A DNA stretch of 64,000 bases from Eutreptiella sp. 'Long Island Sound 2002' (lineage: Eukaryota; Euglenozoa; Euglenophyceae; Eutreptiales; Eutreptiaceae), in contig OZ038384.1 in NCBI GenBank assembly GCA_964036045.1, positions 63,709,355 to 63,773,354 of the forward strand. Reading direction: 5' to 3'. The notes beneath the pieces were generated by a model. It searched no databases, was not told where the DNA came from, and was given only the letters and a program-made list of their open reading frames with translations. Below, piece after piece: positions 16,858 to 54,218 of this stretch. The position numbers were made by a program, and so were the translations under genes. Numbering within the stretch: the first letter of the stretch is position 1; each line of letters starts with the position of its first letter.

Positions 16858-16874
16858 CCGAGACATGGAGCTTG
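16858..16874. repeat. 17-bp target-site duplication, right copy
   Basis: This is an exact copy of 8676-8692. The element B coding sequence resumes immediately to its right (the minus-strand upstream side). Confidence 0.85.
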
Positions 16875-17524
16875 TCCTTGTGCTTGCGGATGTAGTCCAT
16901 GAAGGGGGTGTTAATCCGCGGCACAAGCGAGGAGACATGTTCCCAGGTGTCGTGGGACGGCCCATAGCCTCTCCAACGAACCTTGAACTCCAGGCCTCCG
17001 GGTGCCGAGGCGTTCGGACGCTGGGCCAGGATCTTCTCAACGCTATAGTCTTACTGCTCAGCGTAGTCGTCGTCCGAATCACCCTCATGTGCGGCGTAGT
17101 CGAGGGACACATGTTGGCCACGGAGGTCGGGTTCCGGCACACGGAGTTGACTCTCGTGGCGCTCCCGGAACTGTCCGTGACCCACCTTGATGCGGTAGGT
17201 GTCCTCACCAATCCTGCGGACCACCTCTTCGGGCGTGAACCAGGTTTTGGTGCGGTAGGTGCCCATAGGGCGGGGTCTGATCACCCACACCGGGTCTCCC
17301 ACCCTGAACTTTTGTGCTGTCGAGCTCGGGGCGGACTTCTGACGCTTGGCATGCTCCTTCTCGAGCTCCTGGCAGATGTCCCGCGCCGTTGCCTCTTGCC
17401 GCGCAAAGAATTCCTTGGCGTCCATGGCCATACCATCATCCGACAAGGGAAGTCCCCGACCCAGGGGGTCCCTGCCGAACAAAATCTGATGAGGGGAAAA
17501 AACCATCCAGATTGGGGGTGTCAT
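16858..17524 (-). pseudogene. Element B: integrase C-terminal domain and chromodomain
   Basis: The minus-strand frame contains the integrase C-terminal SH3-like module (FRVGDPVWVIRPRPMG, then TWFTPEEVVRRIGEDTYRIK). An acidic linker follows, then a chromodomain (VEKIL, FKVRWRGYGPSHDTWE). The chromodomain defines a chromovirus-type gypsy element and would steer integration to modified histones. A stop at 17051-17053 separates linker and chromodomain; C reads Asp there. The LINE-like insertion cuts the last ~20 codons, which reappear at 8632-8692. The module lies in the +1 frame relative to the integrase core, exactly as in element C. Confidence 0.85.
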
Positions 17525-18629
17525 GATGGGCCTTCAGAGCGGGCCACATCTCCTCGTACCAGTTCTGACGTGGATTGGTGATGTGAATCTTGCGTAGTTT
17601 CTCGAACAGCTGTCTTCCAGCCACTTCAGCCCAGCCGTTGGACCGGCTGAGCCAGGCAACGCTCTTGGCATGACGTATTCCCATGAGGGAATACATAGCC
17701 TTGAACCAGCCACCAGTAAACTGGGGCCCTCGATCACTGCAAATGGTTCGGGGGATGTCAAAGACGGTCGGTCAATGACGAATCATCATGACTACCACTT
17801 CCTTGGCAAGCAACCCCCTTTTGCGTGCCAGAACGGCTACTACGTAGCCGCTTTGGCGGTCCACACAAAGGACCACACAGTCAAAGATCTCCTTGCCTAT
17901 GTGAACTTCGGGCATGGAGAAGACGTCCATGGCCACGCTCTCCATGGGCTGGTCAGGCACCGGAGTCCATTGGGCTTCCCCCTTGACGTTCTGGTTGTCG
18001 GGATTGCAGGCCTGACAGACCGAGCAACCCTTTCTGACCTTCTTGATAGCAGTGTAGAGACTGATCTGGTCGATTTCGAACCGGCGCTGCATATCCAGGG
18101 CTTGCTTCCTGACCCCTGGGTGCATCATGTGCTGGTGCCAAGCCTCACATAGCTTGAGCACTCGGGACTCTGGGACCAGCAGCTTACCATTCCGGTAGAG
18201 CTTGCCATCCTCCTCAGTCAGCCCCTTTGACCACTTCTGCCCGTCATCAGGGTCGGTCACAGCCCTATACTCGGCCTCAAAGGCCTCAGACTTGGCGTAG
18301 TTGTCGGTCCAGTCGTCCTGGAGGCAAGATTCAGCGAAGAGGTGCTTGTCGGACTCGGCTCCTTCGGGGGCGAGTACTCTGACCGCTCTGCCCATCCTCC
18401 TTCCGAGGGGGGCATTCGCAGCCATGACGACGAAGCATTTAATACCCTCCTCCTCCATCAGGCGCTCCATTTCTATGATCCTCTTGGCCTCAGTGGTCTT
18501 AGCCTCATCGCCATGGGCGGAGACATCCGTCATGCCCTTGCTGGCGGGATAGGCCCACCTACTGAGACAGTCCACCACGGTGTTGTCCTTGCCAGGAACA
18601 TACACAACCGTAAGGTCGAACTTGGCCAA
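17436..18629 (-). pseudogene. Element B: RNase H end and integrase core, with a stop
   Basis: From 18629 the frame reads the RNase H to integrase connection (AKFDLTVVYVPGKDNT), the integrase zinc module (AWHQHMMHPG, then CSVCQAC) and the core with AMDVF as first acidic residue. A TGA at 17772-17774 replaces the Trp codon seen in C. The same frame continues with CSDRGPQ (second Asp) and NGWAEVAGR (catalytic Glu) to 17436. The D-D-E triad is therefore complete apart from the nonsense codon. It is preceded by another TGA at 18651-18653 that replaces an Arg codon. Confidence 0.85.
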
Positions 18630-18650
18630 GGTCTCATGCCATCTTGCCCG

Positions 18651-20893
18651 TCAGGAGGCGGGACCAGAGGGGGTGTCCACGTGCTCTTTGTGCCACGACT
18701 GCAGACTCTGATGGTCGGTGCAGACGGTGACGGGATGAAGGGCTATGTACCCAGCCCATTTCCTGAGAGCCATGACGATGGCATACGCCTCGTTTTCTCG
18801 GGGCGTCCACGTCCGTCTCTGGCCTTCCGCCAGGACTCGGCTCCGGAAGGCCACTGGCACGTGCCTCCCATCGTCAAGCACTTGTTCCAACACAGCGCCA
18901 ACGGCGTAGTCGGAAGCGTCGGTGCGCAGGACAAACCCTCGGTCAGGATCCACAAGGTGCAGACCCACTGCGAATAGCAGCGCCTGCTTCATCCCCTCAA
19001 AGGCACGGTCGGACTCTTCATTCCAGACCAGAGCCTTCTTGGACCCCTTCTTGGTCTCCTCTCGGTTGTCCTTGAGCATGGTCGTCATGGGGGCTGCATA
19101 CTCGGCATACATCTTGATATACCCTGAGTAGTAGTTGCAGAACCCCAAGTATGCCCGTAGCTCAGAGACCGTCTTGGGCTTTTCCCAGTGCTCAATCGCA
19201 GCAACCTTGCCAGGTATGGGCTTCCGCTGCCGGTTCCCGACTACGTGGCCAGCGAAGACCACCTCGCTCACCGCAATGGTGGCCTTGTCACTGCTGCCCG
19301 TGAGTTTGTGCTGAACCAGAAGGTCCAGCACTCTGGTGACGTCCCTCTCATGTGCCTCCAGGAGCTCCTCATAGCTCAGACTGGGGTCCCCGGACGCGAT
19401 GATCACGTCATCCACAAAGGGGTCCGCACAGTTACGCACCGGCTCAAGCAGGTTCTCCAGCATCCGCTGAAAAGCCGCATTGCCGTTGGTATTGCCCATG
19501 GGCATCACCTTCTACTGAAGGGGTCCAAGTGGGATGCTCATTGCTGTGCAGGCACGGGACTCCTCGGCGAGAGGCATCTGATGATAACCATGTTTCAGGT
19601 CAATCACCGTGAAGATCCTCCGCCGCTGTTGCTTTTGCAACATGTCCTCAATGAGGGGCAGCATATAGCTGTCATGCTGCGTTTGGGCGTTTAGGCCGCG
19701 GTAGTTGACCACGAGCCGCGACTCTCCGGCCACCTTCTTGGGTACGATGAAGCAAGGGGTGGCCCATTCGGAGTGGCACGGCTCAAGCCAGCCCCACTCG
19801 ATGAACTCACGGAGGATCTTCTCCATGGCCTCCTTCCTCTCGCGCCTCAGGGCGAACTCCCGGTGTCGGTACACACGGGGGTCCGGCTTCAGCCGTATCT
19901 TGGCCTCACCATACGGTCCACGCACCGGTGGGGAAATACACGCTTTCCGCTGAGGAAGGTATCACCACACTTCTGCTTCAGCCTGGCTCTCAATGCCTGC
20001 ATCTTGGGGCACTCATTGGACTCCGCCTTGGCCTTTCCGGGCACCTGAACCACTGTGCTTACTTGCGGGGTACCACCGCATGGTTTCGGCTCAGGTGGTC
20101 TCCCCAGGTGGCCCAAAGGGTCATTTCTGGTCTTGCCTCGGAACAAGTCACCGTAGGTGGGTGGGTTACCGCTGATTGGCTCGTCCTGGCTGGACATGTG
20201 GTCCAGCACCCTCCTTACGAAGGTATCCCCATCATAGGAACCAGAGACGATGGAGTCCACTTCCGACCAGGCTTTGTCCTGGCCCTTGCCCTGACGCTGG
20301 CTTTCCCAGTCGTGAAAGGGCCGATACATATACCCCTGAACCAGGTCCAGCTCCTCTTCAGTGAGGAGGTCCTCCGGTTCTCCGATGTCAACAGGGGAAA
20401 CCGCAAAGCATTGCCGCCAGGGCTCCGCTATGATGCGGTTGACACACACGAAGTCCGTGGTGTCGGCCTGCTCAAGGCCCCCATCCACATAGTGGAATTC
20501 CGTTGGCCATCTCTGGGGTGGCATGGGCTGTCCCTTAGCGTCCTGATAGACACTCTCTCCAGCCGGTAGGGCGACCTTGTTTAAGGTCATGTTGGTCAGT
20601 GAGGCCACCCAATTCCGGGTGCCTTCCTCCTCGGTGCATCCCATAGGAACAACCAGCACTGCCTTGGAGCGGTCCTTGCGAATCTTCGCTACCGCCCTTG
20701 GAATGTCCCATCGGGGGCAATGGATCCACATCAAACCCTGATGCGGACCCCAGTGCTTCTTCCACGCGGAGTCCTGGGCCCTCCAGTACATCTCACAAAC
20801 CCAAAGATGGGCGGAGGTTCCTGAAGAGAATCCATCCAGGGCTAGATCCGAAGCTCCCAGGTCCCCAACCACTCGGCTCGCAACTTCCGGCAT
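18651..20893 (-). pseudogene. Element B: reverse transcriptase and RNase H, with nonsense codons
   Basis: The pro-RT linker and RT fingers (20893 to 19889), RT palm (19925 to 19512) and the rest of RT plus RNase H (19508 to 18651) are in successive frames. Palm motifs are VVNYRGLNAQTQ, FTVIDLKHGYHQMPL and FVDD (19407-19418, the YxDD-box equivalent). RNase H has TDASDYAVGAVLEQ and the CTDHQSLQ segment. A TAG at 19512-19514 replaces the Trp codon that C has after PLGPLQ. A base change or indel separates the 19889 and 19925 frames. The gene is dead in this copy but gives the uninterrupted reference for the transposon insertion in C, whose site corresponds to about 20582. Confidence 0.88.
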
Positions 20894-21641
20894 TACGCCG
20901 TACTCCTGGTTTGCTGGCCCAGCTGGCTTCAGTCCCCAGCGCGGCTACTTCGAGCTGATTGCATTCCGGGTGGATCCATTGGCACTCTACATGGTGCTCA
21001 GGTGACGAAAGCCACGAGAGCTTGTCGTCCTGGTACAGGGTCGTGGAGGCCTAGGCCGGGAGAACGCCGGAGTCCGTCTCCATCGTGAAGTCCTACCCAA
21101 CGATCATGTCCCAGTCCATCTGGGCCTCGTAGAAGCGACCTTGCAGGAGGATTTCCTTGCCGAGGTCCGGGCGGCTCAGCTCACGGTGGTTCACGAACTG
21201 CAGCCCAACGGCTGCTTCCCTCGTGCCTCCCACCATGTACTGGCCGTTTGCCACCTTCAGTCTGACAGGCCTCCGACTGTCGGTCAAACACTCTGGCGGG
21301 AGTAGGCCAGCCTTGACCAGGCTGACTTGAGCTCCCGCGTCAACCAACACGTCGAAGAACTTCTCCACTTCCCTGCATAGGGCACGGACCTTAAGGTGCA
21401 ACTGTCGCTCACGCCCAACACGGCGCACGGCGTGCAAGCTCAGGATCTCCGGCCGTTCCAGAAGCTCAATAAGCGCCTGGTGCAGGTCGTGGACAATGGG
21501 CTCAGGCTGCTTATCTGCAGCATCCAGCTGCGGCCCGGTTGATCCTCCGATACTCTCGGAAAGATCTTGAAGCACATCAAACACGTTCTTGGTCGGGAAG
21601 GATGGACGGGTGCAAGGGTTCGTGCCTTCACTTGCCCCCAC
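20894..21641 (-). pseudogene. Element B: retropepsin with D-A-G active site
   Basis: The minus-strand protease region (start of homology 21641, stop 21093) contains VLVDAGAQVSLVKAG, so the active-site triplet at 21333-21341 is D-A-G, where A and C have D-T-G. RPVRLKVANGQYMVGG and DWDMIVG follow. After the stop at 21093 the same reading continues with GVLPA and is broken again before 20893. Ala for Thr at the second position is unusual for a functional aspartic protease, and together with the stops it fits a decayed copy. Confidence 0.82.
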
Positions 21642-21884
21642 CCTGCCACTGCGACTGTCTTTCGTCTTGGGTGTCGGACTGGGCCTTCCGCCCGCGGCAA
21701 TCCCTTTGTGCTCAATGTCTCCCGAATGGGATGGTGTGGCGCTTCCCGCAACACCATCCTGCTACCGCCCTAGCTGGGGCCCTTGGCTGCAGGGGCTCCG
21801 CCAAGGGGCGTCCCTTGTGGTAGTAGGGGTACTCTCCTCTGCATCAACCTCGTTGACACTCTTCTTCTTTCCCCCTTTCTTTCC

Positions 21885-24800
21885 CTACTTGTCCTTGTCC
21901 TTGTTCTTATCGTCCGACTTGTGGACCCAGGACCTCTTGATCTCCTGGATGTCTTTCGTCAACTCGGTCCCCACCGACATCAGCTTCGAGAGCTCGTCCT
22001 TGGTGACCTCCACCTTGGTCTCCCGGATACCCACGGGTGCACGCTTCTTCGACCCGTGCACCTTCTTGTAAGCCTCCGTGTCGGCCTTGTGGATGGGACA
22101 TGTCCGGTGGTCATCCTTGAATCCTTTGTTCCTCCCAGAACACACGAAGCAGCCCTGAGGGTGAGTTCGTATGAACTCCCCAAAAGACAGCGGAGGGTCG
22201 CCCATGCGGCGTGGCTCCTTCTTCTCCATCTTCCTCCAACCCTTCTGCAGGGGCTTCCAGCTTCCCCGGGTGCTCCCCGTGTTCAGGTTGTTGGCTACGA
22301 AGGCACAAACGGCTGTCTCGGCGGGCTCATCGTCGTCATCATCATCGTCGAGGGCCTCATCGCCTTCCGTTCCCGCCAGGTCCATGGCAGATTCCCCGCC
22401 AGACCCTTCGCCAACATGGTTGACATCACGGTCACCGGCCTTCAAACCGCGGGTTTGGTGGAGATTCCTGTACTCTTTGAGCACTTCCTCTCTGACCCAC
22501 TCCAAGACCTCGTTGCAGGTCATCCGCGCCGGGATGGCCTGCAGATGGAGGGTCTGGCCGCCCACGTCACACTCGTCCAGGCGCAACATCGCGGTCTTCT
22601 CGCGATCGCCCGTGACGGTGATGAGGAGGGCGTTCCGCAGCTCTCGCCGCTTGACATCCCGCGCCACATGCTTCTTTGTCCAAGCCACCACGTTTGGGTG
22701 ATACTCCTTTGGGAGCATCATCTTGAACGTGTGGTTGGACTTGGCTCTCTTGGCTTCCTTCTTGGTGACTCTCTTGATCCATGCTTCCGGCAGCATGGAG
22801 AGCAGGCAGGCCTGCTCGTCACCCTCGTTCCAGTCCTCCACGTTGTGGCGGAACAGGGTGTATTGCCCCCGGAAGTCTCGCCAATCCCGTAGGCGGATCT
22901 CCCGCCCATCATGCTGAAGCCCTGATGGCCCTCCACCGCTTGGCAGCCACCTGCGGAGCGTCCACCCGCTCCTGCTCGTTGAGCCACTTCTTGGCTTCCT
23001 TGAGGGTCTTGATTTTCCCCTCCTTGGTCGCCACGAAGTATAGCACCTGGAGCACCTCCGGCAGGCACCACCTGAACCGTTTGAAGACATATTTCTCCGC
23101 CTCTGCAGGATCCTTGTCTTCAGTGACGGTCATCCCCGAATCAACCAGCTTCTCCAAGAAGCGGTCGAGGTTGAGGGGGTTGCCATCGTACGTGGGGGGC
23201 TTGATGTCCTTCAGGTCTTCCCACACGGCGGCATCCGCGGCCTTAGAGACCATGAACGCAGGCCGCAAGGTCGACCGAGGTTCCCATCGGCGGCCCCCAC
23301 GTACTCCCACGGCTGCCACTTCCACCTCCTCCGCGGTATCCATGTGGCTACGCCGTGGTTCCTCCATGTACGCCGAACCTAGATGTTCACGCCGTACTCC
23401 CTCCATGTACACCTACTCATCACGGCGCCGGCGGCTGCGCTCAGCGGCCTCCCGTCGTACACCACGCGGCGGGGTAATGCCGAACTCCTCAAGGTCTTCC
23501 TCGCCTCCGCCGACATCCCACTCCACGTCCCCTCCAAGGACCTCACCTCTGAGTCCACCGTATCGCCCCCCAGCCATTGGGATTGGCTCTTCGACTGGTG
23601 CGGGGCGTCGGGGGCGTACCGGTGTCCGCGGTGGAGCACGGCGGTTGTGGTACTCCGCACTGAGCCACTCGTCACGCCACTCTTCACTGCCACCGCCGGG
23701 CGGCACACGCTCGTTACGGCGGCCCGCGCTGTGATGAGAGGGGGCGCTGAGAGAGGGGGCACTGGTGCTGGGGCGAATCCTGGGGGCTCCGCCAGGGGCG
23801 TGGGCTCTGCCCGGACCTGGTTCAGGTCCCCAGCCGTCGTCCGATGAGCTGGATTCCAGGGATGGGTGGTCGCTGCCGACGCTCCCACGGCCTTCCAGCC
23901 TGTCGAACCTCTGCTGCAGGCCATTGATGACCTTGTTCAGTAGCCTGGTCTCGCCCCTGGCGATGTGCAGCTCCTTCTGGGCGGCGCTGGTGACCTTGGC
24001 GATCTTGACCATCTCTGTCCTGGCGATGTGCAGCTCCTTCTGTGCGCCCGCGGCGACCCTGGCAATGCGGATCATTTTGCTTCTGCCCGTGTCTACCTCG
24101 CGCTCGAGGGTCTGGACCCTGCTGCGGAGGTAGACGATCCACCGCCAGGTGGACTCCAGGTCATCCTCTCCCGGTCGGCCGTCAGGGTCTCCAAGGGGTC
24201 CTCCAGGAGGGCCTCCGCCGGGCCCGCCCGGTCCAGGGGGTCCTCCCCCGCCAGGGGGTCCGCCTTCGGGGGTCCACTTGGTGGACGTCCTCCAGGGGGT
24301 CCTGACGGGCCTCCGCCATGGGGTCCCGGTGGGTCTCTGCCAGGTTGCCTCGGTGGGTCCGAGGATGGGGGCTTCTCGGTGTAGCCGAAGTCCATGTCAT
24401 CATCCTCGTCCATGTCGCCCCACCTGGCCGTCTCGGTCTCGCACGCGGTGGACTCCGAGCTCCGGTAGGGAGGAGGGAGATCCTCACCCTCACCCTTTGG
24501 CTCCATGGGGGCATCTCCGCCTCCTCCGCCAGCCGTTCCCGGACGATGTCGGCGGTCTCGTCTGTCCCCATCGCTGGCGGTGAAGAAGGGGTCGGAGTCG
24601 TGGGGATGTCCGTCCGCTGGCCTCCGTGCCCTCTCAGGGGTCTTCCCCTTACCCCTCCTTCGTCGGTAGGCGGTGGGGCCACTGTCCCCACTGCTGCCCG
24701 TGTCGTCCTCCTCCGGGTCCAGCTTCATCTTGGAGGAGGCGTCTCCTTCGAAGAGCTTTCGAAGGGTCTCCAATCTGGATCCTCTTGGGGGTGTCTCGCG

Positions 24801-45796: not shown

Positions 45797-47007
45797 CGGA
45801 GCCCCTGCAGCCAAGGGCCCCAGCTAGGGCGGTCGCAGGATGGTGACGTGGGAAGCGCCGAACCATCCCAGTCGGGAGTCGATAAGCACAAAGGGACTGC
45901 CGCGGGCGGAAGGCCCGGTCCGGCACCCAGTCGCGGAGGCGGGGTGAGGGCAAGTGAAGGCACGAACCCTTGCACCCGTCCGTCCTTCGCGACCAAGAAT
46001 GTGTTTGATGTACTTCAAGATCTATCCGAGAGTATCGGAGGATCACCCGGACCGCAGCTGGATGCTGCAGATGGGCAGCCTGAGCCCATTGTCCACGACC
46101 TGCACCAGTCGCTTGTTGAGCTTCTGGAACGGCCGGAGATCCTGAGTTTGCACGCCGTGTGCCGTGTCGGTCGCGAGCGGCAGTTGCATCTTAAGGTCCG
46201 TGCCTTATGCGGGGAAGTGGAAAAGGTTTTCGACGTGTTGGTCGACACGGGAGCTCAAGTCAGCTCGGTCAAGGCTGGCCTACTTCCACCAGAGTGTCTG
46301 ACGGACAGTCGGAAACCTGTCAGGCTGAAGGTGGCGAACGGCCAGTACATGGTGGGAGGCACGAATGAAGCGGACATTGGGCTGCAGTTCGTGAACCACC
46401 GTGAGCTGAGCCGCCCAGACCTCGGCAAGGAAATCCTCCTGCACGGTAGCTTCTACGAGGCCGAGATGGACTGGGACATGATCGTTGGGTACGACTTCAT
46501 GATGGAGACGGACTCCGGCGTCCTCCCGGCCCAGGCCTCCATGACCCTGTACCAGGACGACCAGCTCTCGTGGCTTTCGTCACCTGAGCACCATGTGGAA
46601 TGCCAATGGATCCACCCCGAACGCAATCAGCTCGAAGTGGCCGCGCTGGACACTGAGCCCACTGGGCCAGCAAACCAGGAGTACGGCGTAATGCCGGAAG
46701 TGGCGAACGGAGTGGTCGCGGACCTGGGAGCGTCGGATCTGGCCCTGGATGCGTTCTCTTCAGGAACCTCCGCCCCTCTTCGGGTATGTGAGAAGTACTG
46801 GAGCGCACAGGACTCCGCGTGGAAGAAGCACTGGGGTCCGCATCAGGGCTTGATGTGGATCCTTTGCCCTCGATGGGACATTCCAAGAGCGATAGCGAAG
46901 ATTCGCAAGGACCGCTCCAAGGCAGTGCTGGTTGTTCCTATGGGATGCACTGAGGAGGAAAGTACCCGACATTGGGTAGCCTCATTGACCAACATGACCT
47001 TAAACAA
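45797..47007 (+). CDS. Element C: retropepsin and start of RT linker, cut by a transposon
   Basis: The frame is open from the amber codon. The aspartic protease motif VLVDTGAQVSSV has its D-T-G at 46244-46252, followed by RPVRLKVANGQYMVGG and DWDMIVGYDFMMETDSG. The linker (QDSAWKKHWGPHQGLMW, VLVVPMGCTEE) matches element B. After LTNMTLN the frame runs into the terminal inverted repeat of the DNA transposon at 47008. The pol gene continues at 52964. Unlike B, this protease segment has no internal stop and a normal active site. Confidence 0.88.
47006..47007. repeat. 2-bp target-site duplication (AA), left
   Basis: Element B shows the undisturbed site as TTAAACAAGGTC. In C the left flank ends TTAAACAA and the right flank begins AAGGTC, giving a duplicated AA at 47006-47007 and 52962-52963. 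Confidence 0.85.
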
Positions 47008-47031
47008 CCCTAGTGACCCCTTTTGCACACC
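47008..47031 (+). repeat. T1 left terminal inverted repeat (24 bp)
   Basis: Starts CCCTAGTGACCC and ends TTTTGCACACC. It is the exact reverse complement of 52938-52961. Confidence 0.95.
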
Positions 47032-47042
47032 TTTGAGCGTAG

Positions 47043-47185
47043 CGGTTGAACAGCGGTTGAACCCAGTTGAACAGCATGTTGCTGTTCAACCCCCCAGTTG
47101 AACTCGGTTGAACGCGGTTGAACAGTTCAACTGGCCTATCGCGCCAATCGGTGGCGCGTGCTCTCGCGATCACGCGTTCAACAGT
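47043..47185. repeat. T1 left GTTGAAC cluster
   Basis: By eye eight GTTGAAC/GTTCAAC heptamers lie within about 95 bp, with a ninth near 47178, in both orientations and mostly preceded by CG or CA. Such subterminal arrays are transposase or accessory-protein binding sites in CACTA-type elements; that role is inferred here. Confidence 0.8.
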
Positions 47186-47557
47186 GGTTAATTGGTAAAT
47201 GTAGCCTGTCCCACAATTTTGGTTTTGAGCTGTTCCCTAAAACCCAGTTAAAACCTGGAACCTACTACCAATGGGCAGGTGGCGGTGTGGTGACCACATA
47301 CATGAAAACTGGAGCCGGCACGTGGTGGCCAACACGTGGCGGTAAAGGGAATGCACATGGTGTGTAGTAGTTGCCACCTGCTCGCTTTTTACTATATACA
47401 TGACGCATTGAATTGAAGAATATTTAATTTCACCTTTGTGCAATATGGTAGTGTCACCAAAAATAACGTAACAATAAGAACAAATTAGAGCACCAAGAGA
47501 TTCTCCATTGTGGTTTCTTACTTGTATGCAAGGATCCCTCTCATTTTACAATCAAAA

Positions 47558-47908
47558 ATGCCAACGTCAAACTTGAAGCAATGTATTGCAGATCACTACA
47601 CTGGATTACAATCGGATGAATTGATGAGTGATTTGGTCAACTTGTTCACCGCATCCAAGGGTGGTCGTACACTATGGGAACGCCTCAAAACTAGAATGGG
47701 TAGTGGGCGGCGTGGTCGACGCAATGACCGGAAGGTCATGGAAAGGGTGTTTACACCCAAGGATGCCGTCCGGTTGATCCTTGACTTGGAAATGCCGAAA
47801 AATAGGTGCTCTACATGTCCTACATGCATACCATGGTGCGTTGCATGTATGCAAGGAGTGTTCAACCGTATGCGAGATGCGTTCAAGTGTGCGGTTGAAC
47901 ACATATGA
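47558..47908 (+). CDS. T1 transposase 5' exon-like ORF
   Basis: The ATG at 47558 (AAA ATG CC) opens MPTSNLKQCIADHYTG, a helical, basic segment (SGRRGRRNDRKVMERVF) and a cysteine cluster (CSTCPTC, CVAC) like a small zinc-binding module. The frame ends at 47908, about 160 bp before the main transposase ORF. I read it as the N-terminal DNA-binding exon of the transposase, joined by splicing at an undetermined site. A separate small protein is the alternative. A GTTCAAC motif and its inverse occur near its 3' end. Confidence 0.45.
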   Translation: MPTSNLKQCIADHYTGLQSDELMSDLVNLFTASKGGRTLWERLKTRMGSGRRGRRNDRKVMERVFTPKDAVRLILDLEMPKNRCSTCPTCIPWCVACMQGVFNRMRDAFKCAVEHI

Positions 47909-48065
47909 AACAAATGCGACTCATGTTTGTGCAACATAGAGTGCCTACCTAGGTTTCATCGAACTATCATGTATATGTCTTCTTCCACATGCAATTGTGG
48001 CCCCATTTACATGCTACCATCAAGTGTTTTTGCATGAAAACAACAAATTGAACATTTGTTAAAGT

Positions 48066-48105
48066 CATGTTCAACTGCCCGGTTGAACAGGTTGAACGAT
48101 TTCAA
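48066..48105. repeat. T1 internal GTTGAAC cluster 1
   Basis: Three GTTCAAC/GTTGAAC motifs lie within 40 bp, overlapping the start of the transposase-like frame. The presumed intron between the first exon and the transposase therefore also carries them. Confidence 0.6.
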
Positions 48106-49548
48106 CCAACGCTCACGTTGTGCACCAACGTTCACGTTGTGCGCGTCACTTTGTTCGAATTAACATGCCTCAAATTTAGGTACAAGAATCTAATATCTTG
48201 GGCCAACCGGCGAACAAAAGCTGCCCAAGAAAAGTTGGATGTTCATTGGGTGCACCCATTTCCATCTTTCAAGCGTATGCACCGTGAATGGCAACGATTG
48301 GGTAAGGCGCAAAAATTGGAAACCACTATTCACAATGGCAAAGTTGGTGTACGATGGGACTTACCGCATTTCTTTAATTATGTCGCAACACAAAAGGAGC
48401 TCATGGAGTCCATGGACTTTCCAATGATCGATGGCGAGCAATTATTCGTCATCATAATTAGAGGCGACGGGTTCCCATGTGGCTCACGCCCATGGGTGCA
48501 AATTGCGATTGGCTTTGCCAATCACATGGAAAAGGCCCGCACTCTTCAATATAATTGGACATTGGATGTCGCATTGACATCTGAACATGACGACGAAGCA
48601 ATGCGTGTCTTTTTTTGTGCCACGTTGCAACACATCCAAACTATCATTGATAGTGGATACATCCAAATGAATAATGTTTATTATCGTGCACGAATCATGT
48701 TGGGTGGAGACTCTCCGTGGTTGCGTCTACTTTTAGGATTGTCGCCTTACTATGCCATTGGAAACATCTACTCTTTTTCCACATGGTGTAGTAGGCGTGA
48801 ACGATGGATGAACACTAAGGTGCGGCGCACAACGCACCTTGATGGAAAATTCCGCGCTTTGTACGATAAAGGTTTGGATTGCACTACGGCCAAAGGCTGC
48901 ACTTCAAAACCAATGCTCCGCGTGGATGACCGCACACGGTTCATTGTGATGTGCATTTTGCACTTGGTGATCCGACTTGGCGACTACCTTACACACTTCA
49001 TTCGCGCGTTTTGCAAACGTTTGCCGCCTCTTGTCCGTGCACGCGTGCAAACCGTGTTGAATGAATCCATGACTAATATTAGTCTCAAAGGTAAAGCAAG
49101 CCCGGACGGTGAGGAGACATGGCGTCTCCTCGCTAACTGGACAATAATAGGTAAGACCATGAAGTTGCCTCCAAAGTATATATCTGTTGTACAAGAAATG
49201 GCAAACCTTTTGACGGCCATGCAATCATGGCGCTACGAGGCCGCGGCCCTTTCAAAGTGTAAACGTGTGGCACGTCGATTTCAGAAATTAATTTGTCCGC
49301 ATAAGCGGTCACCTTACCTTTTGTGGCTTAGAAGAGAGGCTACGGAGGTTCTGAAAAATATTTACCCATGGGGGGCGGGAATGTTTAGTGGGGATATAGT
49401 AGAATCACTAAACTATATATTAAAAGACCACTTCTTATGCTCAAGTCGGTTTCGGTCGGTCGGTCGGTTTCGCACCTCAACCCCATTCAACCGCTCATCT
49501 CTCTTAGTTGTCGGCCCAAGACGTCCCACCCCACATGTTCGTCATTGA
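48067..49548 (+). CDS. T1 transposase-like protein
   Basis: A 493-codon frame; the first ~25 codons overlap a motif cluster and are probably not coding. Conserved-looking blocks are IIIRGDGFPCG (Asp codon 48466-48468), MLGGDSPWLRLLLGLS (Asp codon 48709-48711), HLVIRLGDYLTHFIRAF and FSGDIVESLNYILKD (Glu codon 49402-49404). Two Asp-containing beta-strand-like blocks and a late Glu in a helix fit an RNase H-fold DDE transposase, and location inside perfect inverted repeats supports this. After YILKD the frame degrades into Ser/Arg-rich sequence, and the next ORF overlaps in another frame, suggesting an intron or a frameshift near 49440-49507. I cannot name the superfamily. Confidence 0.6.
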   Translation: MFNCPVEQVERFQPTLTLCTNVHVVRVTLFELTCLKFRYKNLISWANRRTKAAQEKLDVHWVHPFPSFKRMHREWQRLGKAQKLETTIHNGKVGVRWDLPHFFNYVATQKELMESMDFPMIDGEQLFVIIIRGDGFPCGSRPWVQIAIGFANHMEKARTLQYNWTLDVALTSEHDDEAMRVFFCATLQHIQTIIDSGYIQMNNVYYRARIMLGGDSPWLRLLLGLSPYYAIGNIYSFSTWCSRRERWMNTKVRRTTHLDGKFRALYDKGLDCTTAKGCTSKPMLRVDDRTRFIVMCILHLVIRLGDYLTHFIRAFCKRLPPLVRARVQTVLNESMTNISLKGKASPDGEETWRLLANWTIIGKTMKLPPKYISVVQEMANLLTAMQSWRYEAAALSKCKRVARRFQKLICPHKRSPYLLWLRREATEVLKNIYPWGAGMFSGDIVESLNYILKDHFLCSSRFRSVGRFRTSTPFNRSSLLVVGPRRPTPHVRH

Positions 49549-50707
49549 CAAACGCGGACCGGCGGTCATGCTCCATGGAGCATGGCCGCCATTACCCATC
49601 GATGAATGGTGGCATGGGCCAGGTGCACGGGTTTCCGATCGCGACGCCCTCGTGAAGAAATGGACCCGAGGACTCCATCGCGCACTCCAAGAGCTTGCAC
49701 ATGGCGGGTCCCCACATGCGATTGACACACATGCGATTGGCACACCCATGGAGTCCACCCCAAAGCATCGGAGTCAGTCGGGCAAGGCGAAGCAATTCCC
49801 CCAACCAATGTTTGGCGTGAAGGAGGAATTGAGGGATGAAATGAACACCGACGATGGCACGTGGTGGGAGAATTCTAATGCATGGTTTGCGCCGGATCAT
49901 GGAGACGTGGAGAGTGAAAATCCCGTGGTCGACGAGGCAGAGAGCTCAACATCACCCTTCCGAGAAGAGCCAAAAGTCCACGTCCCCATTCGTGGACTCT
50001 TGAAGCCTCCACCAAAGGCAATTCCACAAGCAAAGGGAGGAAGTGCAAGCCCAAAGGTTTTGCTCCTCCAAGCGCAAACTGCGCTCAAACAAAGGGTGCA
50101 AGACAAAACCGACAAGAAGAAGAAGAAGGACGGGCGGGGAGTGCATTCCAAAAAGCGGCAACGGGTGGCAACGTCAGCGGACTCGTCGTCCGACTCAAAA
50201 GGGTCAAGTGCAAGCCAATTGTCGGACAATGATGAGGGGTGGACACCTCCCAAGAAAAAGGAGGCTCCCAAGGCAAACAAGAAGAAGAAGATCGAAGCAA
50301 AACCAAAGAAGGACAAAAATGACAAGGACAAGAAGGAGAAGGCATCTCTGCGGCCCAAAGACGCCAACAACGCAAATGTGGGAGCAAAGGAAGGACAACG
50401 GTCAACACCGAACGTGACGGAGGCAAGTGGCACAGCGAAGGCAAGTGGCACGACGAAGGCAAGTAGCGCGATGGAGGCAAGTGGCGCGACGGAGGCAAGT
50501 GCCGCGACAGAGGCAAGTGGCGCGATGGAGGCAAGTGGCGCAATGGAGACAAGTGCAAGCACACGTACCACGGTGCAAGCAAGCGCACCAGCGGAAGAGG
50601 TGATGTCCCCATGTTCCTGCGTATGCATATGCCTCTACATTTGGTTGCAATGCGCCTTCACAACGTCGAAGCATGCCGGTGCTATAGTGTGTGGCGGTAC
50701 GTCGTGA
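49508..50707 (+). CDS. T1 Lys-rich low-complexity protein or transposase tail
   Basis: The frame has a first ATG at 49535 (MFVIDKRGPAVMLHG). It continues with a folded-looking segment (PLPIDEWWHGPGARVSD, WTRGLHRALQELAHG), then Lys/Pro-rich charged sequence (KKKKDGRGVHSKKRQR) and a six-residue repeat array of the ASGAxE type (bases ~50420-50570). It overlaps the end of the transposase frame in the +1 frame. An AG just before 49508 could be a 3' splice site, making it the C-terminal part of the transposase. Alternatively it is an independent basic accessory protein. No domain is recognised. Confidence 0.45.
   Translation: MSAQDVPPHMFVIDKRGPAVMLHGAWPPLPIDEWWHGPGARVSDRDALVKKWTRGLHRALQELAHGGSPHAIDTHAIGTPMESTPKHRSQSGKAKQFPQPMFGVKEELRDEMNTDDGTWWENSNAWFAPDHGDVESENPVVDEAESSTSPFREEPKVHVPIRGLLKPPPKAIPQAKGGSASPKVLLLQAQTALKQRVQDKTDKKKKKDGRGVHSKKRQRVATSADSSSDSKGSSASQLSDNDEGWTPPKKKEAPKANKKKKIEAKPKKDKNDKDKKEKASLRPKDANNANVGAKEGQRSTPNVTEASGTAKASGTTKASSAMEASGATEASAATEASGAMEASGAMETSASTRTTVQASAPAEEVMSPCSCVCICLYIWLQCAFTTSKHAGAIVCGGTS
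50420..50570 (+). repeat. Hexapeptide-coding repeat array
   Basis: About eight 18-bp units (AGTGGCRCRAYGGAGGCA type) encode ASGAME/ASGATE-like hexapeptides. Confidence 0.75.
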
Positions 50708-50790
50708 AACACGGTTGAACACGGTTGAACACTTCAACCGGCTGGTTGAACACGGTTGAACGCGGTTGAACTCGGTTGAACTCTCTGCAA
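50708..50790. repeat. T1 internal GTTGAAC cluster 2
   Basis: Six GGTTGAAC motifs and one partial inverse copy lie in the 100-bp gap between the two accessory genes. This may be a promoter or internal binding region for the element's own proteins. Confidence 0.75.
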
Positions 50791-50806
50791 CGCTTTTGCA
50801 TAGGAG

Positions 50807-52300
50807 ATGGTGAAAGTGCAACGATTGGAGGAAAAACGCCGCCTCGACGAGAAGCGCCAAGAGGCACGTGAGAAGTTCGGGTTGCCAGCGGGATCCGCAG
50901 TACGGTGGGTGCTGACCGAGGGTCCAGACAAGCGCCTCCGCATCGCAGTGGGCGCCGTGGCAAAGCCAACGAAGGACGACCCCAAGCCACGGAAGGGGGA
51001 GGAGATGGTGAAACTCCCCCCCCAATGGCCCGGAGAGCAGAGTGAGGCCAACGTCACGTGGCCAGTCATTGTGCGCCTCCGCCACACAGCGTTCACGAGC
51101 GAGGATGAGGCAAAGGCCATGTTGGCGAAGTGGGAGGAGAACATGGAGAAAGCGACCAAGGAAACCGAGAGCGGAGATGCAAGACATGGAGGCCCTGACA
51201 AGGAAACCGAGAGCGGAGATGCAAAACATGGAGGCCAAGACGCGGCAACCGAGAGCGGAGATACAAAAGATGGAGGTCAAGATGGGGCAAGCACGGAAGC
51301 AATCGCAAGCACGGAAGCAATCGCGGGAAGTACCACCAATGCGTCGGACAATGGCACCAAGGAGGACTCCGAGGATCCCATGAAGGAGAGCACTTCAAAT
51401 GACGTGGACGATTCCAACAAGGAGGGCATGTCCGTGGAGGATTCGAACAAGGAGGGCACGTCCGTGGACGATGCCAACAAGGAGGGCATGTCCGATGTCC
51501 TCAACAACCCCAAGGTGGAGCACGATGCCAAGGAGAATGAACGACCTCATGTTGGAGATGATGCAAAGGAGGAAGGTGGACCTCAAGACGGCATGCACGA
51601 AGGTGGGAGCGAAAGGGCAATGGCGAGCACAAGGGAGAAGGAGTGTGCCGATGATGGGAAGGAGGAGGTCGGACCGGAGACGCAAGCGCTATGGGCCGTG
51701 GACGCAAAGTGACTAGCCGACAAGGTCCATGAAGCCTTACAAGGCTTGAAGGGATGGCTCCACAAGAAGAAACATGGAGGAGAGTACCGCCGGATCCTAT
51801 GGGGAGCAACAAGGAAGTTTCCGACGTTTACACACGTGGGCATGTCTAAGAGGACACATGATGATGCACATGTTGTGCGCCTTGTAAATAATTTCCTCAC
51901 GGTTTGTTTACCGTCCCTCAGTTACACCGCAATTTCCATCGTGTGGGGCAACGGATGTGCACCCATGGATGTACACAAACATCCAAGGGATGACTCCGCG
52001 TTGAGTGGGGTGGTGGCGGTGGGTGATTTCCGTGGTGGTGGTTTCTTTACTACGGCGTGGATGGGTGGTGGGGGGGAGGGGGGGGCGCAGCGTCAAGCAT
52101 GGATGCAATGTGGGCGTCAAATTGTGCAAGGGGTTGTTGTGGATGCACGAAAGGGGGTGATTTTCAATGCGTGGCGTACGCATGGGCCGGAGCGATGGGA
52201 GGGCGAAAGGTATGCCATCGTGGCGTATACATCTATCGCGTGGCACCGCCTTCCCGCTCCGATGCGCACTGAACTCCTGGACCTGGGGTTCCCATGGTGA
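50807..52300 (+). pseudogene. T1 cargo: TET/JBP-like dioxygenase with one stop codon
   Basis: One frame of 498 codons is interrupted only by TGA at 51710-51712. The N-terminal part (from ATG 50807) is charged (MVKVQRLEEKRR) with VRWVLTEGPDKRLRIAVG, then repeats of an ESGDxxHGG type and a DSNKEGMSV type. The C-terminal ~180 residues resemble the double-stranded beta-helix of 2OG/Fe(II) dioxygenases of the TET/JBP kind: PMDVHKHP where HxD is expected (51962-51970), VAVGDFRGGGFF, then RTHGPERWEGERYAIVAYTS with the distal His and the 2OG-binding Arg. The proximal His position is Pro (CCC, one base from CAC). TET/JBP enzymes oxidise 5-methylpyrimidines in DNA. This copy looks inactive, while its family members may not be. 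Confidence 0.55.
51160..51500 (+). repeat. Protein-coding tandem repeats in the T1 cargo gene
   Basis: Three ~50-bp units (ETESGDA-K/RHGG type, 51160-51285) and three 30-bp units (DSNKEGMSV type, 51408-51495) give acidic, flexible linkers. Confidence 0.75.
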
Positions 52301-52397
52301 CAGGCACTGGGATTGTTCATCCAATTTGACGTGAATTGTTGGTGCCATTGTTGTGTGATTGCGATTACGTGCGGCATTTCTCCTAACGCGCTCCAGT

Positions 52398-52922
52398 GTG
52401 TGTTCAACCGTGTTCAACCGTGTTCAACCGTGTTCAACCGCGCGGTTGAACACGCAGTTGAACATGGCCGAACGCGTATGGGCGGCAATATGAAAGTAGC
52501 AGAAAATCCATGGTTTTGTGGTTATAATTGATTTGGATAAGGCAGGTGCACACTGCAAAAACCTCTGAACACCATCCACGATAGAATGGAAGCCAAAGGA
52601 CCACAATGAAGGTCAAAGCTTAGGGGAATGTGTCAAGTGGGGTGTTCAACCGCATGGTTGAACACCAAGGCGGCGTTGACGCTACTCTTGGACATGATAG
52701 AAAGGGAGTGGCAATGTGAGGGGTATGGCATGGAATAGTGCATTGGGCTTTAGTATGTTGTTAAAAGCATGGTACATCGTCATGGATGGTTTGGAATGGC
52801 ATGGTGATACGTCAAAAGTTTAATTTTTGGTAAAATTGCACTACGCGCGGTGGGGGTGTTCAACCGCTGTTCAGGGGTGGTTCAAGGGCCCAGGTGAAGT
52901 CAGTTGAACACCGGTTGAACAT
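52398..52922. repeat. T1 right GTTGAAC clusters
   Basis: Six motifs lie at 52398-52462 (four GTTCAACC, then two inverse), an inverted pair at 52642-52668 and four more, one imperfect, at 52857-52922. The opposite predominant orientation to the left end makes the element roughly symmetric. No gene lies between 52300 and the right terminus. Confidence 0.75.
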
Positions 52923-52937
52923 AGGACATGGCACCAT

Positions 52938-52961
52938 GGTGTGCAAAAGGGGTCACTAGGG
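52938..52961 (-). repeat. T1 right terminal inverted repeat (24 bp)
   Basis: Exact inverse of 47008-47031, followed by the duplicated AA at 52962-52963. Confidence 0.95.
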
Positions 52962-52963
52962 AA

Positions 52964-54218
52964 GGTCTTCCTACCGGCTGGAGAGAGTGTCTATCAGGAC
53001 GCTAAGGGACAGCCCATGCAACCCCAGAGATGGCCAACAGAATTCCACTATGTGGATGGGGGCCTTGATCAGGCCGACGCCACGGACTTCGTGTGTGTCA
53101 ACCGCATCATAGCGGAGCCATAGCGGCAATGCTTTGCGGTTCCCCCTGTTGACATCGAAGAACCGGAATCGGAAGACCCCCTCACTGAAGAGGAGTGGGA
53201 TCTGGTTCAGGGGTATATGGATCAGCCCTTTCACGACTGGGGAAACCAGCGTGAGGGCAAATGCCAGGACAAAGCCTGGTGGGAAGTGGACTCAATCGTC
53301 TCCGGTTCCTATGAAGGGAATACCTTCGTTCAGAAGGTGCTGGATTACATGTCCAGCCAGGACGAGCCGCCTGGCGGTAACCCACCCACCTACGGCGATC
53401 TGTTCCGAGGCAAGACCAGAGATGGCCCTTTGGGCCACCTTGGAAGACCACCTGAGCCGAAACCGAGCAGGGTCGCTACCCCTCAAGTAAGCTCCGTGGT
53501 CCAGGTGCCCGGAAAAGCCAAGGCGGAGTCCGATGATTGCCCCAAGATCCAGGCATTGAGGGCCAGGCTGAAGCAGAAGTATGGGGACACCTTCTTCAGT
53601 GGAAAGCCTGTGTTTCCCCCACCGGTGCGTGGACCGTATGGCGAGGCCAAGATACGACTGAAGCAGGACCCCCGTGTGTATCGTCACCGGGAGTTTGCCC
53701 TGAGGGGCGAGAGGAAAGAGGCCATGGAGAAGATCCTCCGTGACTTCATCCAGAGAGGCTGGCTCGAGCCGTGCCACTCCGAATGGGCCTCTCCGTGCTT
53801 CGTCGTCCCCAAGAAGGTTGCCGGTGAGTGGCGGCTCGTGGTCGACTACCGCGGCCTGAACGCCCAAACGCAGCACGACAGCTATACGCTGCCCCTCATT
53901 GAGGACATGCTGCAAAAGCAACACCGGCGGAGGATCTTCACGGTGATTGACCTGAAACATGGTTATCATCAGATGCCTCTCGCCGAGGAGTCCCGTGCCT
54001 GCACAGCCATGAGCACCCCACTAGGACCTCTCCAGTGGAAGGTGATGCCCATGGGCGTTACCAACGGCAATGCGGCTTTTCAGCGGATGCTGGAGAACCT
54101 GCTTGAGCCGGTGCGTGACTGTGCGGACCCCTTCGTGGACGACGTGATCATCGCGTCCGGGGACCCCAGTATGAGCTACGAGGAGCTCCTGGAGGCACAT
54201 GAAAGGGACGTCACTTGA
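52964..54218 (+). pseudogene. Element C: RT N-terminal half after the transposon
   Basis: The pol frame resumes with FLPAGESVYQDAKGQP. A TAG at 53121-53123 replaces the Trp codon that B has (in EPWRQC). The frame then reads through the linker and RT: EKILRDFIQRGWLEP, FVVPKKVAGEWRLVVDYRG, FTVIDLKHGYHQMPL, VMPMGVTNGNAAFQRM and FVDD (54132-54143). It ends at TGA 54216-54218, where B has an Arg codon (CGA-type change). All catalytic RT residues are present. The copy is inactivated by two nonsense codons and the 6-kb insertion. Confidence 0.88.

Follow-up and report, generated by a model that had tools for sequence, protein, structure and literature searches.

TET/JBP genes carried on DNA transposons have been described from fungi in three lineages (PMC12730594, Kojima 2025; this and the other literature is cited here from excerpts of the papers). 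The closest of these systems is ESTA, a DNA transposon with a RAG1-related transposase, a 2-bp target duplication and a linked TET/JBP-type gene that is thought to act against silencing (PMC12730594). Here, we describe an element with a similar set of features from the euglenophyte Eutreptiella sp. 'Long Island Sound 2002', located at positions 47008 to 52961 of a 64,000-nt stretch of contig OZ038384.1 (assembly GCA_964036045.1, positions 63,709,355 to 63,773,354, forward strand), hereafter the window. On balance, we lean towards reading it as a cut-and-paste transposon with a RAG1/Transib-fold transposase, in which a leaky UGA at the end of a second gene (gene 2) would append a domain of the 2-oxoglutarate (2OG)/Fe(II)-oxygenase type. 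Compared with the nearest known systems, which are the TET-bearing fungal transposons, above all ESTA, and Transib/RAG1, the element differs in its termini, a 2-bp duplication free in sequence, the zinc motifs, an HxHxxDD motif and the predicted readthrough tail. Titles and abstract openings in the open-licence literature revealed neither a transposon combined with readthrough nor a TET/JBP transposon like the present one.

Inverted ends, a target duplication and many copies identify the element as a cut-and-paste DNA transposon, delimited by the following features.

47008..47031, + strand: left terminal inverted repeat, 24 bp, starting with CCC, a perfect match to the right end
52938..52961, - strand: right terminal inverted repeat, 24 bp, finishing with GGG
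47006..47007, no strand: left copy of the target duplication, 2 bp, AA, by comparison with the empty site
52962..52963, no strand: right copy of the target duplication, 2 bp, AA, by the same comparison
20577..20578, opposite strand: matching empty site in a related retroelement copy

The initial annotation, made by a model from the sequence alone, had reported perfect 24-bp inverted ends and a 2-bp duplication proven by an empty site, and both hold. The ends pair over 24 bp with no mismatch, and the exact 24-mer has 228 forward and 224 reverse occurrences in the 2.28-Gb genome, against 0 and 0 for a control with the letters backward. Among the 100 matches listed, facing neighbour ends are mostly 0.8 to 7.4 kb apart, with some at greater distances (18-24 kb, for example), and the 0.8-7.4 kb spacing fits the expected mix of full and deleted copies. 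Within the window, the flank 46656-47007 matches 20577-20928 and the flank 52962-53167 matches 20373-20578, both on the opposite strand, and since the two matches overlap by 2 bases at the empty site, the AA was duplicated by the insertion. We fetched 20 stretches around other copies and compared them with the window copy; all five that hold both ends carry duplications (CG, CC, CA, AG and CT), so that, counting the window copy, every copy with its two ends available (6 of 6) shows a 2-bp duplication. Transib and RAG1 duplicate 5 bp of their target, against 2 bp here. The KDZ (Kyakuja-Dileera-Zisupton) transposons, which are alike in travelling with TET/JBP genes, make duplications of 7-8 bp, and ESTA duplicates TA, in contrast to the AA, CG, CC, CA, AG and CT of the present element (PMC12730594). 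Most members of the CMCT clade (CACTA, Mirage, Chapaev, Transib, RAG1, Plavaka and ESTA) have, according to the excerpts, CA..TG termini in place of the CCC..GGG seen here.

The transposase gene was delineated as two exons separated by an intron that was predicted by eye from its GT-AG ends.

47558..47835, + strand: predicted transposase exon 1, splice sites by eye
48180..49448, + strand: transposase exon 2, truncated in the window copy, with D at 48466-48468, D at 48709-48711 and E at 49402-49404 (codons checked)

Exon 1 is suggested by the exon-2 part of transposase relatives, which opens with similar RYK/RYR residues. The candidate D, D and E residues pointed out earlier are confirmed at 48466, 48709 and 49402: in an alignment of 32 rows, taken from 64 matched homologues, the corresponding columns are conserved in 18/21 (D134), 30/31 (D215) and 19/21 rows (E446). 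A profile search of Pfam with the open reading frames (ORFs) of the window and the 32 relatives, which also bears on any kinship to KDZ, gave no credible match, and it was structure comparison that assigned the predicted model, with a mean predicted local distance difference test score (pLDDT) of 60.9, to the RAG1/Transib fold. On this model the transposase is a RAG1/Transib-fold DDE enzyme, which shares with Transib/RAG1 the DDE fold, the D-D-E order and a largely helical segment linking the second D to the E. A point against this assignment is that the 32-row alignment holds no C(2)C and H(3-4)H zinc motifs between the second D and the E, motifs that are found in Transib/RAG1 and, in the excerpted sources, in ESTA and the CMCT clade. 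The only columns with at least 50% Cys or His are 221, 278, 296, 299, 398, 410 and 437, and the present transposase conserves C278, C296, H299, C398 and C410 instead. No relative of either the transposase or the domain was confirmed in the viral contigs scanned. The earlier suggestion of a different, possibly undescribed transposon family is thus supported by the RAG1/Transib fold and the lack of a credible Pfam match, and the lineage is apparently undescribed and outside the described CMCT families.

The transposon had also been called complete, which it is not.

49449..49460, no strand: deletion junction, where about 1.46 kb of other copies is missing (the transposase end and one gene 2 exon)

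The approximately 1.46 kb between 49449 and 49461 is present in full in 10 of the 20 fetched stretches and in part in about 5 more, the remainder being deleted at 49449-49461 or ending short of that region. In the copy L020, this stretch closes the transposase frame (506 codons, stop to stop) and also brings an exon-like ORF starting with MEGQQ. As other copies hold sequence that is absent here, the window copy is an internally deleted member of its family.

Downstream of the junction lies gene 2, whose introns were likewise predicted by eye from GT-AG ends, followed by the domain.

49508..50599, + strand: predicted gene 2 exon, low-complexity, basic/acidic; the exon upstream of it is deleted in the window copy
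50804..51712, + strand: predicted last exon of gene 2, ending at TGA 51710-51712
51710..51721, + strand: stop and readthrough-type context, TGA CTA GCC GAC
51713..52300, + strand: in-frame extension, a 195-aa oxygenase-like domain with HxHxxDD, GDFxGG and FNA..H....W.GER

A piece related to the first of these exons is fused in P0044, and pieces related to the last exon occur in P0049 and P0064. The initial annotation had placed the motif blocks at the C-terminus of one linked gene; the blocks themselves stand, at 51713-52300, and recur in three subfamilies, but that annotation missed the in-frame TGA at 51710, which cuts the cargo gene in 23 of 23 distinct copies and which the domain follows directly in the same frame. 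A query in which the stop was read as a residue found no full-length gene-2/domain protein without the stop in the protein database.

The ORF 51713-52300 is matched at 96-100% identity at 150 scored genome places (of 3831 first-look candidates); the family of the window copy is here called family 1. The representative of subfamily 2, P0069, joins by natural deletion a transposase (51% identical over a third of the query) to a piece of the domain. Among its genomic copies, of which 150 were scored from 1306 candidates, the commonest open frame is 187 codons long, and the domains of two of them, L057 and L058, are 45-46% identical to that of the window over 186-187 residues (best E 3e-50). Subfamily 3 (L059-L068) is tied to transposases of the P0064/P0049 type (56-61% identical over the aligned parts), with domains up to 46% identical. 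Two of the 150 scored places of subfamily 2 and 10 of the 150 of subfamily 3 were read in detail, and of the transposase subfamilies, which also include the P0027 and P0057 types, the cargo was traced in these three. The domain is thus common to three transposon subfamilies, with 43-46% identity between them, and it therefore appears to have accompanied these transposons from a time before their transposases had drifted apart to 50-60% identity. Loss of the cargo gene from other copies, which was earlier held to tell against a recruited enzyme, does not characterise the family as a whole, in which many copies and all three subfamilies keep the domain, although deletion derivatives exist. An old copy, L037, has 70% DNA identity to the element from 51783 to the right end; its homology stops at an AG that precedes TACCGCC, upstream of position 1500 in that copy (reverse strand). 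The DNA beyond is unrelated, and this edge is a deletion junction or else the border of an exon.

Judged by codon comparisons, the domain is under protein-level constraint. Between the window and L037, the ratio of nonsynonymous to synonymous substitution rates (dN/dS) is 0.395 in the domain frame, whereas the two remaining frames give 1.08 and 1.19. Between subfamilies, the proportion of synonymous differences (pS) is 0.74-0.77, near saturation, and that of nonsynonymous differences (pN) 0.39-0.44, and the 38-43 codons directly past the stop give dS 2.17 and dN 0.69 (window vs L057) and dS 1.65 and dN 0.67 (window vs L059). Two observations weigh against this conclusion: the 3' noncoding part, compared between the window and L037, gives 0.60, 0.94 and 0.93 in its three frames, one of which is thus likewise low, and variation within family 1 looks near neutral, the post-stop stretch having 11 nonsynonymous changes and 0 synonymous ones. 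The family 1 sample is also biased, most copies having been picked by their match to an intact protein, and for its near-neutrality and this bias we set within-family dN/dS aside as evidence; it does not support current constraint of the post-stop stretch.

Programmed readthrough at the gene 2 TGA, taken on its own, is probable. In all three subfamilies the domain sits right after the stop of the preceding gene and in frame. All 23 distinct copies of family 1 read TGA CTAG; of the 10 copies of subfamily 3, 8 have TGA at the homologous codon, 1 has TAA and 1 has lost the codon by a small deletion, TGA CTAG is found in 6/10, and the tail of gene 2 and the domain lie in a common frame in 8/10 (L066 and L068 carry an indel). 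In L059, L060, L061 and L068, the sequence TGA CTAGCCGAC is exactly that of the window, with the 12 bases TGA CTA GCC GAC identical, while over the domain families 1 and 3 have a nucleotide identity of 0.51-0.52 and use the same codon at 31 or 32 of 80 identical residues. UGA CUA G is described in the excerpted literature as a 'high-TR motif' (PMC12233894), and this known leaky context is present in family 1 and subfamily 3. Subfamily 2 weighs against readthrough, having only UGA C in common with it: its two copies, both in frame, read TGA CCTT and TGA CTTT, not CUAG. Among known cases, the arrangement resembles the UGA CUA readthrough genes of fungal and animal metabolic enzymes such as MDH1 and LDH, in which a leaky UGA leads into a functional C-terminal extension (excerpts of PMC5133446, PMC4359377 and PMC4207609); it differs from them in residing on a DNA transposon and in the length of the predicted extension, about 195 aa.

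Three other explanations of the stop have to be considered. That UGA is read as selenocysteine or as a sense codon would agree with its presence, in place of UAA or UAG, in nearly all copies examined, but is very improbable: UGA also terminates the domain in the window, L057 and L059, and L020 closes its transposase frame with it; UAA occurs in one subfamily-3 copy, and none of the 7 Rfam matches at 51500-52961 is a selenocysteine insertion sequence. An old nonsense mutation, with the domain surviving as a relic or beginning separately at a downstream ATG, is quite improbable too; the first ATG past the stop, at 51842, does open a 152-aa ORF (P0001) and many copies are deletion derivatives, but the Met is not kept in P0005, L057, L058, L059 or L061, homology starts well before 51842, the post-stop stretch is constrained between subfamilies, and the frames have stayed open despite near-saturated synonymous divergence.

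Removal of the TGA by (alternative) splicing, with the domain as an ordinary last exon of gene 2, is the least improbable of the three, though still unlikely. The remaining gene 2 segments are themselves joined by predicted GT-AG introns, the CTAG directly past the stop is common to families 1 and 3, and the homology of L037 ends at an AG. In subfamily 2, a good donor, CAT|GTAAGC, lies 83 nt ahead of the stop, with CTGAC and a pyrimidine-rich CAG 18 nt past it; this pair, the strongest found there, is however 104 nt long and shifts the frame. Pairs that keep the frame, of 678 and 297 nt in L057 and of 1017 nt in the window, are not shared; the strict donor pattern used would miss the predicted gene 2 donor GTGATG, and in subfamily 3 about 120 nt upstream of the stop were covered. 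Across the whole domain, no AG of the window has a counterpart, at equal aligned column and phase, in at least one copy from each of the other two subfamilies. Splicing also leaves a single stop within one shared frame unexplained, and the GTTGAAC repeats, which lie in the introns and towards both ends of the element, are absent near the stop.

47045..47182, 47860-48097, 50714-50781, 52402-52463, 52644-52663 and 52858-52920, no strand: GTTGAAC/GTTCAAC repeats, noncoding

All 31 occurrences are confined to the 5' end, the introns and the 3' end, with 0 inside predicted exons, and they may be binding sites that spread across the noncoding parts. The repeats are often palindromic and fill introns and subterminal regions, as at 47858-48110, 50714-50781 and 52400-52460.

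Returning to the domain that readthrough would append, we consider an oxygenase fold probable from its sequence features. The blocks discerned by eye in the window and subfamily 2 are VHxHPxDD, GDFxGG and GVxFNAxxxHxPxxWxGxRxxxVxYT, and their order and spacing (HxH.., GDFxGG, G-x-I-F-N.., H, G-x-R, hydrophobic-x-x-YT) follow the block order of 2OG/Fe(II) oxygenases. In the six-row alignment A8, which combines three subfamilies, H90, D93 and H157 are invariant, H88 is lost only in P0005, and GxR is kept in 5/6 rows, L059 having GES; H157 and GxR would be the distal His and the 2OG-binding Arg. The block order is like that of CcTET, NgTet1 and phage Tet_JBP proteins, and the distance from the second His to the Arg is the same as in CcTET (HGVPEVDGER, against HGPERWEGER in the window). 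These proteins have HxD where the present domain has HxHxxDD, and there is no significant sequence match. HxHxxDD is found in the window, L057, L058, L059, L061 and L064, while L062 reads HTD, P0005 reads YNHRED and other decayed subfamily-3 copies vary at the site. Some fungal TET types (PE) carry HxE in place of HxD and are barely recognisable by sequence, according to the excerpts of PMC12730594.

The alternative that the domain is real and selected but of an unknown fold is rather unlikely. In its favour, the canonical iron pair HxD (or HxE) is missing from the domain rows compared, with HxHxxDD in its place; Pfam, PHROGs and NCBIfam returned no significant or relevant match to the domain, PDB sequences matched at chance level only, and phage records matched only at E >= 2. 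The dioxygenase profile match that the initial annotation had proposed to look for was thus not significant in any of these libraries. Tet_JBP (PF12851) had no match in the transposon ORFs tested, including P0005 and P0069, while 7/8 phage proteins used as positive controls matched at E <= 0.003, and one of these exceeded the curated cut-off. Genome-wide, at E <= 0.001, its one match was on a minor contig (G000:C2034:19243-19665). That match exceeds the curated cut-off within a 534-codon frame, and the contig is possibly a contaminant or viral. A structure prediction, also proposed earlier, was run on the domain from 6 sequences, five of them near-identical where they overlap, and yielded a pLDDT of 32.6 and no usable fold. 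Several profile-profile comparisons with the TET profile A5 were unfavourable as well: A6 scored 12.25, with 135/200 shuffles as high, and 13.01 when reversed; A2 gave P 0.19; the transposase control A3 reached 16.55; and A7 was non-significant at 18.19 (6/200 shuffles, 3 of 4 rows) and 14.61 (28/200, all 4). The pairwise comparison with CcTET was non-significant (z 2.1, 11/300; 2.0 in the global setting).

What favours an oxygenase over an unknown fold is the block order and spacing, together with hhalign alignments to TET members in the correct register. Once the three subfamilies were combined in A8, of which 5 of 6 rows were used (P0005 being left out as frame-shifted), comparison with the trimmed TET profile or its 3-row subset gave single-test E values of 0.005-0.017, with 0, 0, 0 and 1 of 100 shuffles as high; the profile comparisons made before combining were non-significant. 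A 2OG-FeII_Oxy_3 phage protein gave z 2.5 (5/300) in pairwise comparison, which counts among the non-significant tests, negative pairs reaching z 2.2. Profile support for TET/JBP is suggestive, and because the profile and pairwise scores are mixed, with negatives nearly as high, we treat TET/JBP as a lead and not a result. Of the TET/JBP-type dioxygenase proposed initially, a conserved, selected domain with 2OG-oxygenase-like blocks stands, and the TET/JBP identity is tentative, with Tet_JBP unmatched, HxD missing and the profiles suggestive. The lack of a significant dioxygenase match had been named as what would tell against that proposal; this half applies, as the libraries give none and the A8 comparison is suggestive.

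If the leaky-stop transposon we favour is as described, the DDE transposase, with its fold known from a predicted model, would move the element and leave the observed 2-bp duplications. The gene 2 product would mostly end at the UGA, and a small share of ribosomes would read on, as the comparison of subfamilies suggests, adding a C-terminal 2OG/Fe(II)-oxygenase-type domain that is TET/JBP-like in its block order. Through the remainder of protein 2, the minor fusion of accessory protein and oxygenase could be guided to the transposition complex or to the DNA of the transposon, where it might oxidise bases and ease silencing or excision. That the domain acts on DNA bases is possible but tentative, and DNA demodification may serve to escape silencing. 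We also put forward, with some reserve, the fuller proposal of a lineage apparently outside the described CMCT families in which long-standing programmed UGA readthrough appends a DNA-oxidising TET/JBP-like HxHxxDD domain to an accessory protein, in which case a small and fixed part of the machinery would carry an anti-silencing or DNA-modifying activity. Were the stop leaky by design, the transposon would set the dose of its accessory enzyme. Viruses and a small number of cellular genes are known to set a dose by a leaky stop. Whether an oxidase borne by a transposon acts on the DNA of that transposon becomes a directly testable question in this system. A domain that no tried profile recognises and a new transposase lineage would also take the present transposon beyond the TET/JBP transposons described from fungi, and unlike the linked gene of ESTA the domain is likely a readthrough tail of an accessory protein (excerpts of PMC12730594).

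Among the other copies, L035 (G000:C10:25543287-25549131) contains the right part of the element three times in tandem with a period of 2,630 bp, each unit with its own right end, and is a head-to-tail array of a deletion derivative. The host sequence of the window copy is retroelement-like (46656-47007 and 52962-53464). A second copy of this retroelement, at about 16858-24441 on the opposite strand, supplies the empty site, and a reverse transcriptase-like ORF was recognised by eye at 53124-54218 in the host retroelement-like sequence.

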